From Acidihalobacter aeolianus (GTDB taxonomy: Bacteria; Pseudomonadota; Gammaproteobacteria; DSM-5130; Acidihalobacteraceae): a stretch of 64,000 nt of DNA. The stretch covers positions 2,250,462-2,314,461 of the forward strand of contig NZ_CP017448.1 in the NCBI RefSeq assembly GCF_001753165.1. The letters run 5' to 3'. How positions within the stretch are numbered: position 1 is the stretch's first letter; the number at the start of each line of letters is the position of its first letter. A model generated the notes under the pieces. It was not told the DNA's origin, did no database searches, and saw nothing but the letters and a program-made list of their open reading frames with translations. The position numbers and the translations under genes were made by a program. Below, one piece after another: positions 2,750 through 13,414 of this stretch.

Positions 2750-4831
2750 ATGGAATCCGAAGTCACGCCCGTCAGCAGCCATGCCGCGCGCCCCCACGCC
2801 CCCCTCAACATCCCGCCAACCGCACGGCCCCGGACAGTCGTCCTGCGCGATGGCCAGCATGCCCCCTTCGATCCTGCCCGCATCCAGGCAGCCATCGCCA
2901 AGGCCCTGTTCGCGGCCGAACCGAACGCCGCGGGGAACGTGGAAACGGCCCGCGAGCTGACCGCCACGGTCGAGCACGCCCTGGAAAGACGCCTCGGCGA
3001 GAGCGGCTGCGTCGATATCGAATACGTGCAGGATCAGATCGAGCTCGCACTGATGCGCGCCGGCCGCTACGCCGTCGCACGCGCCTACGCGGTCTACCGC
3101 GACCGTCATCAGCGCCTGCGCCAGGACGGACGCACCCTGGTCGACGTGGAATCCTCGGTCAAGGAGTACCTGAGCCGCGCCGACTGGCGCGTTCACGCCA
3201 ATGCCAACCAGGGCTATTCACTGGGCGGACTCATCCTCAACGTGTCCGGCAAGGTAGTCGCCAATTTCTGGCTCAGCCATGTGTATCCGCCCGAGGTAGG
3301 CGAGGCCCACCGCAACGCCGACCTGCACATCCACGACCTCGACATGCTCTCAGGCTACTGCGCCGGCTGGTCGCTGCGAACCCTGCTGACCGAGGGTCTC
3401 AACGGCGTTCCGGGGAAGATCGAGGCCGGCCCGCCCAAACATCTGTCGAGCGCGGTCGGGCAGATGGTCAACTTCCTCGGCACTCTGCAGAACGAATGGG
3501 CCGGCGCACAGGCCTTCAGCTCCTTCGACACCTACCTCGCGCCCTTCGTGCGCAAGGACCGGCTCGACTACGACACCATCCTGCAGCACCTCCAGGAACT
3601 CATCTTCAACCTCAACGTCCCTTCGCGCTGGGGCACGCAGACGCCGTTCACCAATCTCACCTTCGACTGGGTCTGCCCGACGGATCTGGCAGGGCAGCAT
3701 CCGATGATCGGCGGCGAGGAAATGCCCTTCACCTACGGCGAGCTGGGCCCCGAAATGGAGCTGATCAATCGCGCCTACATCGAGGTCATGACGCGCGGCG
3801 ACGCCAAGGGCCGTGTGTTCACTTTTCCGATCCCGACCTACAACATCACGCCGGAATTTCCCTGGGAATCAGACAACGCCACGCGCCTGTTCGAGATGAC
3901 CGCGAAATACGGCCTGCCGTATTTCCAGAACTTCCTCAATTCCGATCTCGAACCGCACATGGTCCGCTCGATGTGCTGCCGGCTGCAGCTCGATTTGCGC
4001 GAGCTGCTCAAGCGCGGCAACGGCCTGTTCGGCTCCGCCGAGCAGACCGGGTCGATCGGCGTGGTCACCATCAATTGCGCCCGGCTGGGCTATCTGCATC
4101 GTGGCGACGAGGAGGCCCTGTTCGCACGCCTGGACGCGTTGCTCGAACTCGCCAAATCCAGCCTGGAGATCAAGCGCAAGGTCATCCAGCGTTTCATCGA
4201 CGAAGGCCTGTTCCCGTACACCAAGCGCTATCTCGGCACCCTGCGCAACCATTTCTCGACGCTCGGGGTCAACGGCATCAACGAACTGATCCGCAACTTC
4301 ACCGACGATGCGCACGACATAGTCACCGACTGGGGCCACGCCTTCGCCTGCCGCATTCTCGACCGCGTGCGGGCGCGCATCGTCGATTTCCAGGAGGAGA
4401 CCGGGCACCTCTACAACCTGGAGGCCACGCCGGCCGAGGGCACCACCTACCGCTTCGCCAAGGAGGACCGCAAGCGCCTGCCGGGCATCCTGCAGGCCGG
4501 CACTCAGGATAAGCCCTACTACACAAATTCGAGCCAACTCCCGGTCGGCTTCACCGACGACCCCTTCGACGCGCTGGAACGCCAGGAGGCACTGCAGCAG
4601 CGCTATACCGGCGGCACCGTGCTCCATCTCTACATGAACGAACGCATCTCCGACGCGGAGGCCTGCAAGCTGCTGGTAAAACGCTCGCTGGAGCGCTTCC
4701 GGGTGCCCTATCTCACGGTCACCCCAACCTTTTCCATCTGCCCGAAACACGGCTATCTCGCCGGGGAGCACGAATTCTGCCCGCACTGCGACGAGGAACT
4801 GCTGGCACGCAAACGGACGGCCGTGCACTGA
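2750..4831 (+). CDS. nrdD: Class III anaerobic ribonucleoside-triphosphate reductase, large chain lacking its own glycyl-radical tail
   Basis: NrdD reduces ribonucleotides to deoxyribonucleotides without oxygen, using a glycyl radical installed by NrdG. The 693-residue protein has one N-terminal ATP-cone (about residues 24-120), then the ten-stranded barrel typical of the family. It ends in a Zn-type motif, CPKHGYLAGEHEFCPHC (C664, H667, C677, C680). In well-studied NrdD chains the glycyl-radical loop follows this zinc site. Here the chain stops 13 residues after it and that loop is encoded by the next small gene. The frames differ, and a stop, a 40-bp gap and a fresh ribosome site separate them. 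The start is set by AGGAGGCGCC before ATG. Confidence 0.95.
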   Translation: MESEVTPVSSHAARPHAPLNIPPTARPRTVVLRDGQHAPFDPARIQAAIAKALFAAEPNAAGNVETARELTATVEHALERRLGESGCVDIEYVQDQIELALMRAGRYAVARAYAVYRDRHQRLRQDGRTLVDVESSVKEYLSRADWRVHANANQGYSLGGLILNVSGKVVANFWLSHVYPPEVGEAHRNADLHIHDLDMLSGYCAGWSLRTLLTEGLNGVPGKIEAGPPKHLSSAVGQMVNFLGTLQNEWAGAQAFSSFDTYLAPFVRKDRLDYDTILQHLQELIFNLNVPSRWGTQTPFTNLTFDWVCPTDLAGQHPMIGGEEMPFTYGELGPEMELINRAYIEVMTRGDAKGRVFTFPIPTYNITPEFPWESDNATRLFEMTAKYGLPYFQNFLNSDLEPHMVRSMCCRLQLDLRELLKRGNGLFGSAEQTGSIGVVTINCARLGYLHRGDEEALFARLDALLELAKSSLEIKRKVIQRFIDEGLFPYTKRYLGTLRNHFSTLGVNGINELIRNFTDDAHDIVTDWGHAFACRILDRVRARIVDFQEETGHLYNLEATPAEGTTYRFAKEDRKRLPGILQAGTQDKPYYTNSSQLPVGFTDDPFDALERQEALQQRYTGGTVLHLYMNERISDAEACKLLVKRSLERFRVPYLTVTPTFSICPKHGYLAGEHEFCPHCDEELLARKRTAVH

Positions 4832-4871
4832 TACCCCATCCCATCCAATATCCGAGAAGAGGAGACATCCC

Positions 4872-5072
4872 ATGAACGAAACGCTTCAATACGTCCCTGA
4901 AACCCAGTTGCCGGACGAGGAACGCCAGCGCTGCGAGGTGTGGACCCGCGTGATGGGCTATCATCGTCCCGTCGCCGAGTTCAATCCCGGCAAACAGTCG
5001 GAGCATGCCCAGCGCCGGCACTTCCGCGAGCCGGTCGAGGCGGAAGCCGCACCGTGCACGACCTGCGCATAG
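4872..5072 (+). CDS. Separate glycyl-radical polypeptide of the class III reductase
   Basis: This 66-residue protein carries RVMGYHRP (residues 26-33) followed by FNPGKQSEH. It is the counterpart of the RVCGY...FNAGKQ glycyl-radical loop at the C-terminus of ordinary NrdD; the radical site would be Gly29. A clear ribosome site, GAGGAGA, lies 6-7 bases before ATG, so it is translated on its own. It sits between nrdD and nrdG and overlaps nrdG by 19 bp, so the three are one operon. I infer that it docks into the NrdD barrel and is the substrate of NrdG. A cysteine pair near its end (CTTC) may bind metal or simply be tail. A sequencing frameshift is unlikely because the intervening DNA has a stop, a spacer and a ribosome site. 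Confidence 0.9.
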   Translation: MNETLQYVPETQLPDEERQRCEVWTRVMGYHRPVAEFNPGKQSEHAQRRHFREPVEAEAAPCTTCA

Positions 5073-5755
5073 GCGGTTTCACACCGTTCACCACCCTCGA
5101 CTTCCCTGATCGTCTGGCGGCGATCGTGTTCTGCCAGGGCTGCCCCTGGCGCTGCGACTACTGTCACAACCAACCTCTGCAGCCGGGCAAAGGGCGTACG
5201 GCGGGTCCTGCCTGGGAACGGGTCGAGGCCATGCTGACGCAGCGCCGTGGACTGCTCGACGGCGTGGTGTTCAGCGGCGGAGAGCCCTGCGCGCAGTCCG
5301 GCCTGCGCCCTGCGCTCGCCGTGGTCAAGTCCATGGGTTATGCCACTGGGCTGCACACCGCCGGGGCCTACCCCACCCGCCTGGAAGCGGCACTGGACAC
5401 GCTCGACTGGATCGCGCTGGACGCCAAGGGTCCGCTGGAGGATTACGCTACGATCGTCCACGCCCGCGGCGCGGGTGAACGCTTTCGCCGCAGCCTGGAG
5501 ATCGTGCTCGGTAGCGGGCTTGGATACGAGGTCCGCACTACGCTCTATGCGGACGCGACGCCCGAGAAACTGACCCGCTTCGCCGGGTTGCTGGCCGGTC
5601 TCGGGGTGCGTCACTACGCCTGGCAGGCTAGGCGCTCGACCGACATTGCGGGCAGACCGCTCATCGAGGCACCGCCAGACCCTGGTTGGCATCAGGCGGC
5701 GGCAACTGTCGGCCCCTGGTTCGAATCGTTCGAGTTCAGAACAGGCGGGCCCTGA
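5054..5755 (+). CDS. nrdG: Anaerobic ribonucleotide reductase activase (radical SAM)
   Basis: NrdG uses a [4Fe-4S] cluster and S-adenosylmethionine to abstract a hydrogen from the reductase glycine. The radical-SAM motif is C30-x3-C34-x2-C37 (GCPWRCDYC), followed by the SAM-binding FSGGEP stretch. I choose the GTG at 5054, giving 233 residues starting HDLRIGGFTPFTTLDFPD. That is the normal N-terminus of this activase type, and GAGGCGGAAG upstream can serve as ribosome site. A longer in-frame ATG at 4940 would only add sequence that overlaps the small glycyl-radical gene. In this genome its target glycine should lie on the separate 66-residue protein. Confidence 0.93.
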   Translation: MHDLRIGGFTPFTTLDFPDRLAAIVFCQGCPWRCDYCHNQPLQPGKGRTAGPAWERVEAMLTQRRGLLDGVVFSGGEPCAQSGLRPALAVVKSMGYATGLHTAGAYPTRLEAALDTLDWIALDAKGPLEDYATIVHARGAGERFRRSLEIVLGSGLGYEVRTTLYADATPEKLTRFAGLLAGLGVRHYAWQARRSTDIAGRPLIEAPPDPGWHQAAATVGPWFESFEFRTGGP

Positions 5756-6210: not shown

Positions 6211-6224
6211 TTGATCTCGGTCAA
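6211..6224. promoter_or_regulatory. FNR-type box upstream of ubiT
   Basis: TTGATCTCGGTCAA matches the FNR/ANR consensus TTGAT-N4-ATCAA in nine of ten fixed positions. It lies 60 bp before ubiT and 217 bp before the divergent 72-residue gene. A possible -10 (TATGCT, 6231-6236) is too close for classical FNR activation, so I do not assign a start site or say which gene is controlled. Confidence 0.65.
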
Positions 6225-6284: not shown

Positions 6285-6857
6285 ATGCCCCATCATGCCT
6301 CCCCGCCCGCAGCGACCGTCGGTGCAGCTTCCTCGCATCCGCTCGCCCTGCTGCTCAGGGTCACGCCCAACGCCCTCCATGGCATAGCCTTGGCGCGCGG
6401 TTTCAATCTCGCAGTGGACAGGCAGGCACTGGCCGCGAGGGCAGCCGACCTCGAAGGGCGGCATATCGGCATTCAGATCGAGGACACAGGGAACCATTGG
6501 TGTTTTCGGATTTATCGAGACCGCTTGTACTACGTACGTAGCGAAATCGAAGACTGCGACGTGCGCATTCGTGGCTCGCTGGAGGATTTTCTGCGGCTGG
6601 CGCTGCGCCTGGAGGACCCGGACACCCTGTTCTTCCACCGCAGGCTGATCATTGAGGGAGCCACGGAAACAGGGCTCGCGGTGAAGAACCTGCTCGACAG
6701 TCTGGATTTCGATCTCGAGGCGCGTCTGGCCGAACTGCCGGGACCCGCGCCGGCCAAACGCCTTGCCGGGAAGGCCGTGCGCAGCCCGGCGGCCCAGCGG
6801 GTGCATCGGCTCGTGGTCCGTGCAATCGCCCCGCGAGACCGCTCCGAGTCTATCTAG
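6285..6857 (+). CDS. ubiT: UbiT, SCP2-domain protein of oxygen-independent ubiquinone synthesis
   Basis: UbiT is the lipid-binding accessory factor that, with UbiU and UbiV, lets bacteria make ubiquinone without O2. The 190-residue protein has an SCP2 sterol-carrier fold at about residues 35-150. It includes the stretch HRRLIIEGATETGLAVKNLL that is typical of the YhbT/UbiT branch. No signal peptide or membrane helix is seen, so it should be cytosolic and bind isoprenoid intermediates. AGGAAAGG precedes the ATG. It converges on ubiV with a 46-bp gap. The nearby ubiU and ubiV genes make the UbiT assignment firm compared with generic SCP2 proteins. Confidence 0.9.
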   Translation: MPHHASPPAATVGAASSHPLALLLRVTPNALHGIALARGFNLAVDRQALAARAADLEGRHIGIQIEDTGNHWCFRIYRDRLYYVRSEIEDCDVRIRGSLEDFLRLALRLEDPDTLFFHRRLIIEGATETGLAVKNLLDSLDFDLEARLAELPGPAPAKRLAGKAVRSPAAQRVHRLVVRAIAPRDRSESI

Positions 6858-6903
6858 CGCCGCATATTCACGACAGAGCAGTTTTCCTTTCCCTGATCTC
6901 GCA

Positions 6904-7803
6904 TCAGGCCCGCGGAGTCGGCGCCCAGAGCATGCCGGGCTCGCCATGCCAGTAGCCGTTGCAATAGCCTTCCGGACTCAATGGCCGCAGGGCATCGCAG
7001 GCCTCGGGCACCTTGCTCTGTCCGTCGATCACGCCCCGGAAGGCCGAAACGATGTCCGCCGTGCCCTGCTGTTGAGGCATCACCCTCAAGACATCCACGC
7101 CCCGCGCCTGCAGGGAGGGGAAATCGGCCAGCAGATTGCACGGCAGAGCGGACTGTAGCTGCACGCCGTTGACCGTGAACAATGCCGACCCCTCCTGGGT
7201 CGACAACGGCAGGCCCTCCGGAAAATCCCCGCAACGGAACCCGCAACGATCCTTGGCAAGACCCGCGTCGCGCGCAGTGAAACAGCGCGCGGAAAAGGCA
7301 AGCGGCAACCGGCCGTAGGCCAACACCTCGATCTCCACGCCCTCCGGGTGCTCATCCCGCATCGCCTGCAGCGATTCCGCCGACATCTCCACTGGCGAGA
7401 CCCAGCGGAACGCACCCAGCTCAACGAGCAGATCCAGGGCCATGGGGTTGTAGCAGTTCACATGCGGACCGACGACGAAAGGCGTTTCGCCGGACAGCGC
7501 CTGCACCGCTGCCATGTCGTTGGCCTCGATCCGGTAACGGCCGTTGCGACAGATGCGCTCGAGCATGGCCAGTTCCGATGCCGCCTCGACCAGCGCCAGT
7601 GTGGACAGCACGACCTCTTTGCCTGCCGCGGCGAGCCGGTCCGCCGCTTCCAGCCAATCGCGCAGTCCGAAACTGCGCCGTTTCGCGCAAACCACCTCGC
7701 CCAGATAGACGATATCGAGCGGCCAGGACTCAACTTCGCGGTAGAACGCCTGCATGCGCTCCTTTGGCCAGTAATACCCAAGCGGGCCCAATGCCAGTTT
7801 CAT
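6904..7803 (-). CDS. ubiV: UbiV, peptidase-U32-family Fe-S hydroxylase partner (O2-independent ubiquinone)
   Basis: UbiV forms a heterodimer with UbiU that carries out anaerobic hydroxylations of the ubiquinone ring. The 299-residue protein has the four cysteines expected for the UbiV [4Fe-4S] cluster: C39, C174, C187 and C191, the last two in DRCGFRCG. The ATG at 7803 starts MKLALGPLGYYW, the usual UbiV N-terminus; an open frame upstream overlaps ubiU and is not part of the protein. It follows ubiU by 16 bp and is the last gene of the operon radical-SAM gene-ubiU-ubiV. The family is named after peptidases, but UbiV is not a protease. Confidence 0.92.
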   Translation of the reverse strand: MKLALGPLGYYWPKERMQAFYREVESWPLDIVYLGEVVCAKRRSFGLRDWLEAADRLAAAGKEVVLSTLALVEAASELAMLERICRNGRYRIEANDMAAVQALSGETPFVVGPHVNCYNPMALDLLVELGAFRWVSPVEMSAESLQAMRDEHPEGVEIEVLAYGRLPLAFSARCFTARDAGLAKDRCGFRCGDFPEGLPLSTQEGSALFTVNGVQLQSALPCNLLADFPSLQARGVDVLRVMPQQQGTADIVSAFRGVIDGQSKVPEACDALRPLSPEGYCNGYWHGEPGMLWAPTPRA

Positions 7804-7819
7804 CTCACGTTCCTCCCGT

Positions 7820-8830
7820 TTACTGCCAGGGACGGTCGAGGGCACCCAAGGTGTGGCTCTGTCCTTCCGAAAGCTTGTCCAGCGAGCGGCGCCAGGCGGG
7901 ATCGACGACACCGCCCGGATCGCGGACACAACGGTCCAACGCCTGCCTAAGCACCCGGGTGACCTCGCCGACATAGGCCGGGCTGCGCTGGCGGCCCTCG
8001 ACCTTGATCGCTGCCACGCCGGCCTGTACCAGCTGCGGCAGGATATCCAGCACATTGAGGCTGGTCGGTTCCTCGATCGCGTAATCCGGGGCGCCGGAAA
8101 CCCGGTAACGCCCCTTGCACAGCGTGGGGTAGCCCGCCGGTTCGTCGGGGGCGTAGCGGTCGATGAGCACGCCGTTCAGGCGGACCTGTCGCCAGGCCCC
8201 GGTTTCCTCCCAACGAACCGCATGGGCGGGCGAACACACGCCGCGCGTGTTCGGCGAATCCCCGGTGACATAGGACGACAGCGCGCAGCGCCCCTCCACC
8301 ATCACGCAAAGGCTGCCGAAGCCGAACACCTCGATTTCCATCGGACTTTGTTCGACGATGGTGCGCACCTGCTGCAGCGACAGCACCCGCGGCAGCACGG
8401 CCCGCTGCACGCCGAAACGCTCGCGATAGAACGCCAGCGCCCGTGGATTGGTGGCCGATCCCTGCACCGACAGATGCAGACGCAACGCTGGGTGCCGATC
8501 GGCGGCATAGCCGAGCAGACCCGGATCGGCCATGATCACAGCATCCACGCCCAGCCCAGCGGCCGCATCGACGGCCGCCGTCCACTGCTTCCAGGTTTCC
8601 GCCTGCGGATAGGTATTGAGCGCCAGCAGAACCTTGGAATTGTGACGATGGGCGTAATCGATGCCGCGGGCGATCTCGGCATCGGAGAAGTTCAGGCCGG
8701 GGAAATTACGCGCGTTGGTGGCGTTCTGAAATCCCAGATAGACCGCATCCGCACCACCGTCGACCGCCGCCCGCAGCGCGGGCAGGCCGCCTGCGGGACA
8801 GACGAGTTCGGGCAGGCGGTCAACACCCAT
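7820..8830 (-). CDS. ubiU: UbiU, peptidase-U32-family Fe-S hydroxylase subunit (O2-independent ubiquinone)
   Basis: UbiU pairs with UbiV in the anaerobic hydroxylation of ubiquinone precursors, using prephenate as oxygen donor in studied systems. The 336-residue protein shows LVCPAGGLPALRAAVDGGAD at the start and the four cluster cysteines C175, C182, C199 and C238. These have the same spacing as the four cysteines of Escherichia coli UbiU, with an offset of six. The ribosome site is weak, so translation may depend on the upstream radical-SAM gene, whose stop is 33 bp away. Regulation would come from the FNR-type promoter before that gene. Confidence 0.93.
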   Translation of the reverse strand: MGVDRLPELVCPAGGLPALRAAVDGGADAVYLGFQNATNARNFPGLNFSDAEIARGIDYAHRHNSKVLLALNTYPQAETWKQWTAAVDAAAGLGVDAVIMADPGLLGYAADRHPALRLHLSVQGSATNPRALAFYRERFGVQRAVLPRVLSLQQVRTIVEQSPMEIEVFGFGSLCVMVEGRCALSSYVTGDSPNTRGVCSPAHAVRWEETGAWRQVRLNGVLIDRYAPDEPAGYPTLCKGRYRVSGAPDYAIEEPTSLNVLDILPQLVQAGVAAIKVEGRQRSPAYVGEVTRVLRQALDRCVRDPGGVVDPAWRRSLDKLSEGQSHTLGALDRPWQ

Positions 8831-9520: not shown

Positions 9521-9563
9521 ACTATAGGCACCAAACCGGAACCGCCTAATTGACTCACATCAA
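9521..9563 (-). promoter_or_regulatory. FNR-activated (class II) promoter of the radical SAM-ubiU-ubiV operon
   Basis: Read on the minus strand, the FNR-type box at 9563-9550 is TTGATGTGAGTCAA (plus strand TTGACTCACATCAA). It is followed by a -10 TATAGT at 9526-9521. The predicted start near 9515 places the box centre at about -41.5, the position for direct FNR activation. The leader would be about 28 bases. Confidence 0.75.
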
Positions 9564-13400: not shown

Positions 13401-13414
13401 TTGATTCAGATCAA
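13401..13414. promoter_or_regulatory. Perfect FNR/DNR-type palindrome between the globin operon and the DNR-like regulator
   Basis: TTGATTCAGATCAA fits TTGAT-N4-ATCAA exactly. On the minus strand, activation at -41.5 would start transcription near 13366, just before the globin ribosome site. On the plus strand it lies 83 bp before the regulator start and could mediate autoregulation. Confidence 0.85.

Follow-up and report, generated by a model that had tools for sequence, protein, structure and literature searches.

The nrdD locus of the window (the whole 64,000-nt stretch of Acidihalobacter aeolianus DNA analyzed here) very probably encodes a class III ribonucleotide reductase (RNR) made of two polypeptides, with the radical on a separate small protein; there is no biochemistry or EPR for it. 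In glycyl radical enzymes, the radical-bearing part is normally the C-terminal loop of the same chain. The split, its conservation, the selection on it and the absence of another NrdD from the genome are read from sequence; radical formation, catalysis and exchange are inferred. In the mechanism we propose, the ATP-cone, the zinc ribbon and the barrel that holds the presumed catalytic cysteines would come from NrdD. The glycyl-radical loop would come from the 66-residue protein, which would dock in the barrel at the site of the ordinary NrdD C-terminus. NrdG, from the same operon-like cluster, would generate the radical on Gly29, and the radical would then move to an NrdD cysteine and start catalysis. 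Oxygen would cut only a small, cheap and exchangeable chain; replacement of the damaged subunit, which the initial annotation had suggested as an advantage along with regulation, is plausible, and no assay data exist for either. The initial annotation had proposed that NrdG makes the radical on the small subunit for use in the NrdD barrel. This proposal gains support here, as it fits the evidence that we count for a two-chain enzyme: the seamless split, the purifying selection, the kept pair of presumed catalytic cysteines, a tethered structure model and the gene trio of Cupriavidus necator.

A separate gene for the predicted glycyl-radical loop

The locus comprises the following features (window coordinates).

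2750 to 4831, + strand: nrdD, class III RNR large subunit, 693 aa, without glycyl-radical loop
2834 to 3112, + strand: ATP-cone domain, NrdD residues 29-121 (PF03477, E = 4.9e-18)
3359 to 3361, + strand: Cys204 of GYCAGWS in NrdD, Cys in 61/61 rows of alignment A6
3977 to 3979, + strand: Cys410 of SMCCRLQ in NrdD, Cys in 61/61 rows of alignment A6
4739 to 4789, + strand: zinc-site motif CPKHGYLAGEHEFCPHC of NrdD, 13 residues from the NrdD end
4858 to 4864, + strand: ribosome-binding site AGAGGAG of the 66-residue gene, 7 nt upstream of its ATG
4872 to 5072, + strand: free-standing glycyl-radical subunit, 66 aa (PF13597 positions 531-562; 28 aligned relatives, alignment A1)
4932 to 4934, + strand: Cys21 of the 66-mer, Cys in 28/28 rows of A1
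4956 to 4958, + strand: Gly29 (RVMGY), radical glycine by motif, invariant in A1; codon read directly
5054 to 5755, + strand: nrdG-type radical SAM activase, probable GTG start, 233 aa (VHDLRIGGF), 19-bp overlap with the small gene

NrdD matches PF13597 over model positions 2-532 of 562 (E = 6.1e-171) as well as NF006126 (E = 0), and the 66-mer matches PF13597 above the cut-off over positions 531-562 (E = 3.4e-8). Since one chain covers 2-532 and the other 531-562, the split is seamless, and the two pieces, jointly spanning 2-562, pass the profile test for a class III RNR (NRDD/TIGR02487). The NrdD C-terminus reads CPKHGYLAGEHEFCPHC-DEELLARKRTAVH-stop, and a zinc motif of the same form is found in the 76 split NrdDs compared. 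We take Cys410 to be the radical (thiyl) cysteine and Cys204 the second catalytic cysteine, which would give the window NrdD the two barrel cysteines expected of a class III RNR. The RVxGY-type radical-glycine motif is absent from the NrdD chain and present on the 66-mer, whose sequence includes CEVWTRVMGYHRPVAEFNPGKQ and whose loop is CEVWTRVMGYHRP...FNPGKQ. The small gene begins 40 bp after nrdD, in a reading frame shifted by +1 relative to it. The initial annotation had described NrdD as ending just past its zinc site, and the radical loop as a separate gene between nrdD and nrdG that has a ribosome site to itself and is read in a different frame; both descriptions are borne out.

A class III RNR is expected to have a dedicated radical SAM activase, and NrdG adjoins; it is of the NrdG2 type (TIGR02495, E = 1e-50, 171.8 bits against a cut-off of 131.15). 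The nrdG ORF as listed (271 aa) is overlong, the GTG at 5054 being the likelier start. By profile and motif, the window enzyme is a two-chain variant of the class III RNR and not of the one-chain type. The class I/II large-subunit profile PF02867 has no match in the window NrdD, whose Pfam matches are NRDD and ATP-cone only, and the 66-mer has no pyruvate formate-lyase-type glycyl radical domain, PF13597 being its only Pfam match above cut-off (a search to E 10 added one weak DUF; the HMMER filters discard most weak matches).

A second full-length nrdD elsewhere in the genome would have refuted this reading, and the profile search found no second NRDD match in the window's genome, only one NRDD and one radical piece. 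This result also bears on whether the small protein, instead of being a standing subunit, serves for repair as a 'spare part' in the manner of YfiD/GrcA. The logic would be similar, as proteins of this kind exist for pyruvate formate-lyase in E. coli and T4 (available text of PMC8683613), but the window NrdD lacks any loop that could be repaired and no other NrdD was found in the genome; therefore, the normal carrier of the radical must be the small protein. We thus regard a role in repair alone as very unlikely and retain the standing subunit, which may also be exchangeable, so that the two roles overlap.

In the surroundings of the locus, FNR-like sites lie at window positions 6211-6224, 9550-9563 and 13401-13414, the one at 13401 being perfect. 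FNR-like matches with up to 2 mismatches number 20 in the window against 10.1 expected, and none lies upstream of nrdD (2427 to 2750). Adjoining nrdDG, at 6285-8830, are an SCP2-like gene and two U32-peptidase-like genes, which presumably resemble the oxygen-independent ubiquinone genes ubiT/ubiV/ubiU.

Distribution and arrangement of the split

PF13597 matched 38 of 369 genomes in a sample of the class. By row reading, 28 of these are split at about position 530 (for 3 of them the barrel itself is also divided, into two pieces or between two contigs), 7 are fused and 3 are fragmentary or weak, without radical part. The search for the split and for co-occurrence of its halves, suggested at the outset, thus came out in favor of the two-chain reading, as none of the 38 matching genomes has a complete loop-less NrdD without a radical piece. 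A phylum sample, overlapping with that of the class, gave matches in 57 of 398 genomes, of which 13 read as split and the rest mostly as fused. Within the window's order, NrdD is present in 2 of 5 genomes, split in both; 3 of the window's 4 relatives there have no NrdD match, and the system is therefore dispensable in near kin.

Titled genome contigs were scanned with the 28-member alignment A1, which gave at least 567 relatives, and the best 80 loci were kept; because the scan patterns favor the split type, these loci are no measure of frequency. NrdD lies within the locus in 77 of the best 80, as a separate upstream nrdD in 76 and fused in one (L149), and was not seen in the flanks of L082, L133 and L151. 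All three frame relations occur among the 76 split loci (39, 21 and 16), and the gap from nrdD to the radical gene has a median of 32 bp with a range of -89 to +298 bp, 16 pairs overlapping. The gaps are approximate, the small-gene starts having been chosen partly by ribosome-site score. Split types occur in Pseudomonas, Stutzerimonas, Billgrantia and Rhodocyclaceae, on plasmids of Cupriavidus and Bradyrhizobium, and in a few MAGs filed under other phyla. On the NrdD tree described below, the split is no rarity but the normal condition within one large clade that is mainly proteobacterial. Sequencing error as its cause, which resequencing had been suggested to reveal, is rejected, since the arrangement recurs in many independent genomes and in varied frames.

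The two ORFs might still be joined in translation, by stop read-through or frameshift, into one chain after all. Both pieces do share a frame in G002 and in 21 of the 76 titled loci, with a single intervening stop in most of the same-frame loci displayed. However, joining is hard to reconcile with the occurrence of all three frame relations, the spread of gaps given above and the different stop codons, or with phage contigs that bear the radical piece alone. Moreover, in G662 (L065 2497-13925) the radical gene stands directly before nrdG and ~9 kb from nrdD, that is, the subunit travels with its activase. The small ORFs also start with ribosome-site-like motifs, which is weak evidence as the starts were picked with the motif in mind. 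We give next to no credence to joining and keep to two separately translated chains.

Further arrangements were observed in MAGs. In L149 (3-1679; alphaproteobacterium MAG SZUA-601), a single open frame encodes NrdD with two glycyl-radical domains in tandem at its end, and a Geobacteraceae MAG (L144 4983-6533) has two near-identical radical-subunit copies ~1.2 kb apart. That the MAG radical gene without NrdD in L133 belongs to a prophage could not be shown; 2 of its 9 neighbors match PHROGs, both of unknown function.

Plasmid pHG1 of C. necator H16 carries the same gene trio, with a 676-aa reductase, a 66-aa product and an activase; the 66-aa product is annotated 'nrdD anaerobic ribonucleoside-triphosphate reductase'. 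NrdDG of this strain was reported essential for complete denitrification, in a passage that, in the available text, is silent on the small ORF (PMC2864759). With the trio and the reported need for NrdDG, the enzyme so encoded would work in vivo, if the locus behaves as its sequence says. The original H16 genetics is reportedly that of Siedow et al. 1999 (J Bacteriol 181:4919).

Evolution and selection

A quick tree was built from 65 NrdD cores, 9 fused and 56 split; the split rows are every second of 110 plus named ones, L149 was left out as too short, and three rows have very long branches. The fused/split label needs 2 changes on this tree, a split after the fused outgroups and one re-fusion (L006). 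The branch joining all split rows (with L006) has an SH-aLRT of 86, not 95, and L006 lies inside a 40-row branch with an SH-aLRT of 95. A single origin of the split is the simplest reading of the tree.

Purifying selection on the 37-codon core of the small gene is indicated by its pooled pN/pS, which comes to 0.27 for the genome collection (773 close, non-independent pairs among 80 cores of 79 loci) and to 0.36 for the viral set (318 pairs among 75 cores). Conservation at the glycine is inflated because the cores were extracted by motif; the extraction pattern missed the variants TRCMGY (L202) and SRSMGF (G562 and the viral L243). Cys21 is found in 80 of 80 genome-collection cores and 71 of 75 viral cores, whereas at this position the fused NrdD loci have Cys in 4 of 41 readable cases and Thr in 33. 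We infer that Cys21 may aid two-chain assembly. Variant radical subunits with CEVFSRSMGFIRP in place of CEVWTRVMGYHRP are present in L066 (3100-3420, - strand) and L243 (4980-5400). A conserved C-terminal cysteine pair acting as a redox tail was considered and discarded, as two or more Cys are present in only 13 of the 76 tails of NrdD and in 5 of the 76 of the small protein; in the window, CTTCA falls in the overlap with the nrdG start.

These data can be set against the possibility that nrdD is decaying, its pieces being remnants in a cell that uses its other RNR. Such an enzyme is at hand, as the window's genome has one complete PF02867 match (a class I/II-type RNR large subunit in a 976-aa frame), and the absence of an NrdD match in 3 of 4 relatives tested in the order would fit. 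The purifying selection on the small core, the invariance of the presumed catalytic cysteines, the same split in many genera and the requirement for NrdDG reported from H16 nevertheless leave decay scarcely tenable, and a functional two-chain enzyme is the reading that we prefer. A second class I/II RNR large-subunit gene appears in the genome as three adjacent partial matches (G000:C1:1067241-1068696) and is possibly broken.

Structure model of the proposed two-chain enzyme

The initial annotation had suggested modeling NrdD with the 66-mer. We modeled the pair of L076 (Bacterium BMS3Bbin13) as one AlphaFold2 chain, the nrdD stop being read as a residue, and the loop was placed in the barrel. 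The first model, from bacterial rows only, had a mean pLDDT of 76.9 and a poor loop (block 721-730, mean 51; 724-727 and 733-768, <50), and still aligned over 139-731 on residues 26-587 of T4 NrdD (1h7b) with a Z of 31.3. The second model, from 61 rows including 18 naturally fused phage NrdDs, had a pLDDT of 87.2 and a pTM of 0.82, with 97, 88, 92 and 84 for the blocks of residues 711-750. It aligned over 108-748 on residues 85-735 of the active P. copri NrdD (8p2s_B; Z 34.2, rmsd 2.9 Å, 554 residues) and over 139-732 on residues 26-587 of 1h7b. Gly725 of the model falls within ~1-2 residues of the radical glycines numbered Gly711 in P. copri (available text of PMC11226230) and Gly580 in T4 (PMC2795772), a correspondence that is approximate and taken from end offsets only.

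In the model alone, then, the loop sits in the barrel as in solved NrdDs, and the docking geometry is partly imposed because the alignment includes fused phage NrdDs and the chain is artificially tethered. The matching NrdDs of known structure are single chains, and one class I enzyme matches via its ATP-cone region; the 66-mer alone had no significant match in the PDB (best E 0.95). The glycyl domain of P. copri NrdD, as described in the accessible part of PMC11226230, was ordered in one monomer with ATP and undetectable with dATP, and is therefore mobile even when tethered.

Phage contigs with the radical subunit alone

A1 gave 161 relatives in IMG/VR, and the best 80 loci were kept. No NrdD or NrdG was found near the radical gene in these 80 (tblastn with window queries, E<=1e-5, flanks <=10 kb), nor did tblastn find a class I/II reductase in the flanks. 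Whole-contig searches covered 50 of the 80, with preference for long contigs (10-212 kb); each has one PF13597 match, which is the radical part, starting at 513 and 521 in two contigs and at 530-532 in the rest (49 of 50 above cut-off), and none has an NrdD barrel. Six of 30 end-compared contigs (G750, G754, G771, G779, G791 and G792; 35-47 kb) carry exact direct repeats of 99-127 bp at their two ends, the pattern of circular assemblies. They are probably complete, by their end repeats only (such records may be fragments), and no NrdD barrel, radical SAM or PF02867 match was found in them. One of them, G754/L164, is by its gene content a clear tailed phage, the radical gene being surrounded by matches to terminase, head protease, major head, portal-family and tape-measure proteins. 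Portal, terminase and integrase are among the commonest families of the 133 neighbor proteins of the viral genes, each with <=3 matches.

As nothing else of the system was found in these six probably complete phages, the subunit has to meet a host enzyme unless it is inert, and its conservation argues against inertness. On balance, and with considerable reserve, we favor the view that phages carrying only the radical subunit supply it to the two-part class III RNR of the host, whether to form that enzyme, to replenish it or to take it over, which would keep DNA precursors flowing in anaerobic infection. Use of a host NrdD is likely, and a host split NrdD is the obvious partner; the function is inferred, and no host has been identified for these metagenomic contigs. 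The phage copies could also inhibit or decoy the host NrdD rather than serve it, given that functional data are lacking and that the neighboring phage genes are varied and mostly unassigned. However, the radical glycine, needless for an inhibitor, is kept in the 80 viral loci (79 by motif plus L202), which argues for service over blocking. The argument loses weight in that the glycine was required both by the extraction and by one of the two scan patterns, which biases the count. We consider a decoy improbable. If the phage subunit does serve the host enzyme, its gene would be an auxiliary gene for a single domain that brings a radical into that enzyme, the RNR counterpart of T4 Y06I.

BMS3Bbin13 has, besides its split nrdD, a second radical gene (L064 4903-5091, - strand) on a 61-kb phage-like contig (G269:C3), the core of which matches the nrdD-adjacent copy at 36 of 37 residues. 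The contig has matches to a DnaB-like helicase, exonuclease V, HNH, an RNR large subunit and an SSB-like protein, and no structural gene among 25 of 102 families listed. It looks like a phage with a gene taken from BMS3Bbin13 or a near relative, the shared bin being no proof.

An NrdD of the wider family is encoded in 62 viral loci, many of them fused. In at least 15 of the 62, a separate radical gene lies no more than 700 bp away (14 plus L243); the motif-based class of viral NrdDs with 'no radical domain' misses some, L243 at least. By eye, a C-terminal thioredoxin/glutaredoxin-like CPNC stretch was seen in the viral fused NrdDs of L249, L256-L259, L262, L263, L265, L268, L269, L272, L273 and others. 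An N-terminal extension with at least 3 Cys, possibly metal-binding, is present in 11 of 79 viral radical proteins and 1 of 80 in the genome collection.

Viral loci with the Cys-rich N-terminal extension: L160, L162, L169, L170, L188, L203, L204, L210, L211, L213, L226

Among cultured phages (INPHARED), two records match, one of them annotated as a reductase and the other unannotated, and both align over 50-64% of the query at <60% identity; no clear free radical subunit was seen there, the matches being judged from the search listing.

Comparison with known systems

We found no account of an NrdD whose glycyl domain has a gene to itself in the literature searched, where coverage of subscription journals was partial and the H16 genetics may mention the small ORF. 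Split nrdD genes of phages likewise have nrdD in pieces, but the breaks, as far as the available text of PMC3653736 describes them, are an intein, an intron or unexplained and belong to single phages, whereas the split of the window is conserved at one protein boundary. The split class II RNR of Pseudomonas, NrdJa/NrdJb, also spreads one RNR chain over two genes, but it is of the B12 class and has no glycyl radical.

YfiD/GrcA and T4 Y06I are likewise small free glycyl-radical proteins, phage-borne in the case of T4 (accessible part of PMC8683613). They repair an oxygen-cut enzyme that owns a loop, whereas the 66-mer is the sole loop and matches PF13597; a partner enzyme with its own replaceable loop is missing here, as the window NrdD is loop-less and there is no other NRDD. 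Spare parts for glycyl radical enzymes beyond pyruvate formate-lyase have been raised as an open possibility (PMC8683613, in the portion available). The phage-borne free subunits and the tandem radical domains of L149 are what one would expect if the radical subunit were replaceable. In PHROGs, the C-terminal part of phrog_4132 (179 positions) is matched by 8 of 8 small radical proteins scanned (E 7.1e-11 to 9.7e-6); this profile is longer and has no function assigned, and the phage copies, which suggest that viruses too have taken advantage of a swappable radical carrier, offer one for the proteins that match it.

Ordinary NrdDs (T4 1h7b, T. maritima 4coi, P. copri 8p23/8p2s) have the profile, the barrel, the zinc ribbon and the glycyl loop sequence in common with the split system, together with the ATP-cone, where present, and an NrdG-type activase. 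Only in the split system is the glycyl loop on a second polypeptide with its own gene. A split extending across a clade would thus represent a swappable radical carrier, in which activation by NrdG, docking, cutting by O2 and replacement are separately measurable.
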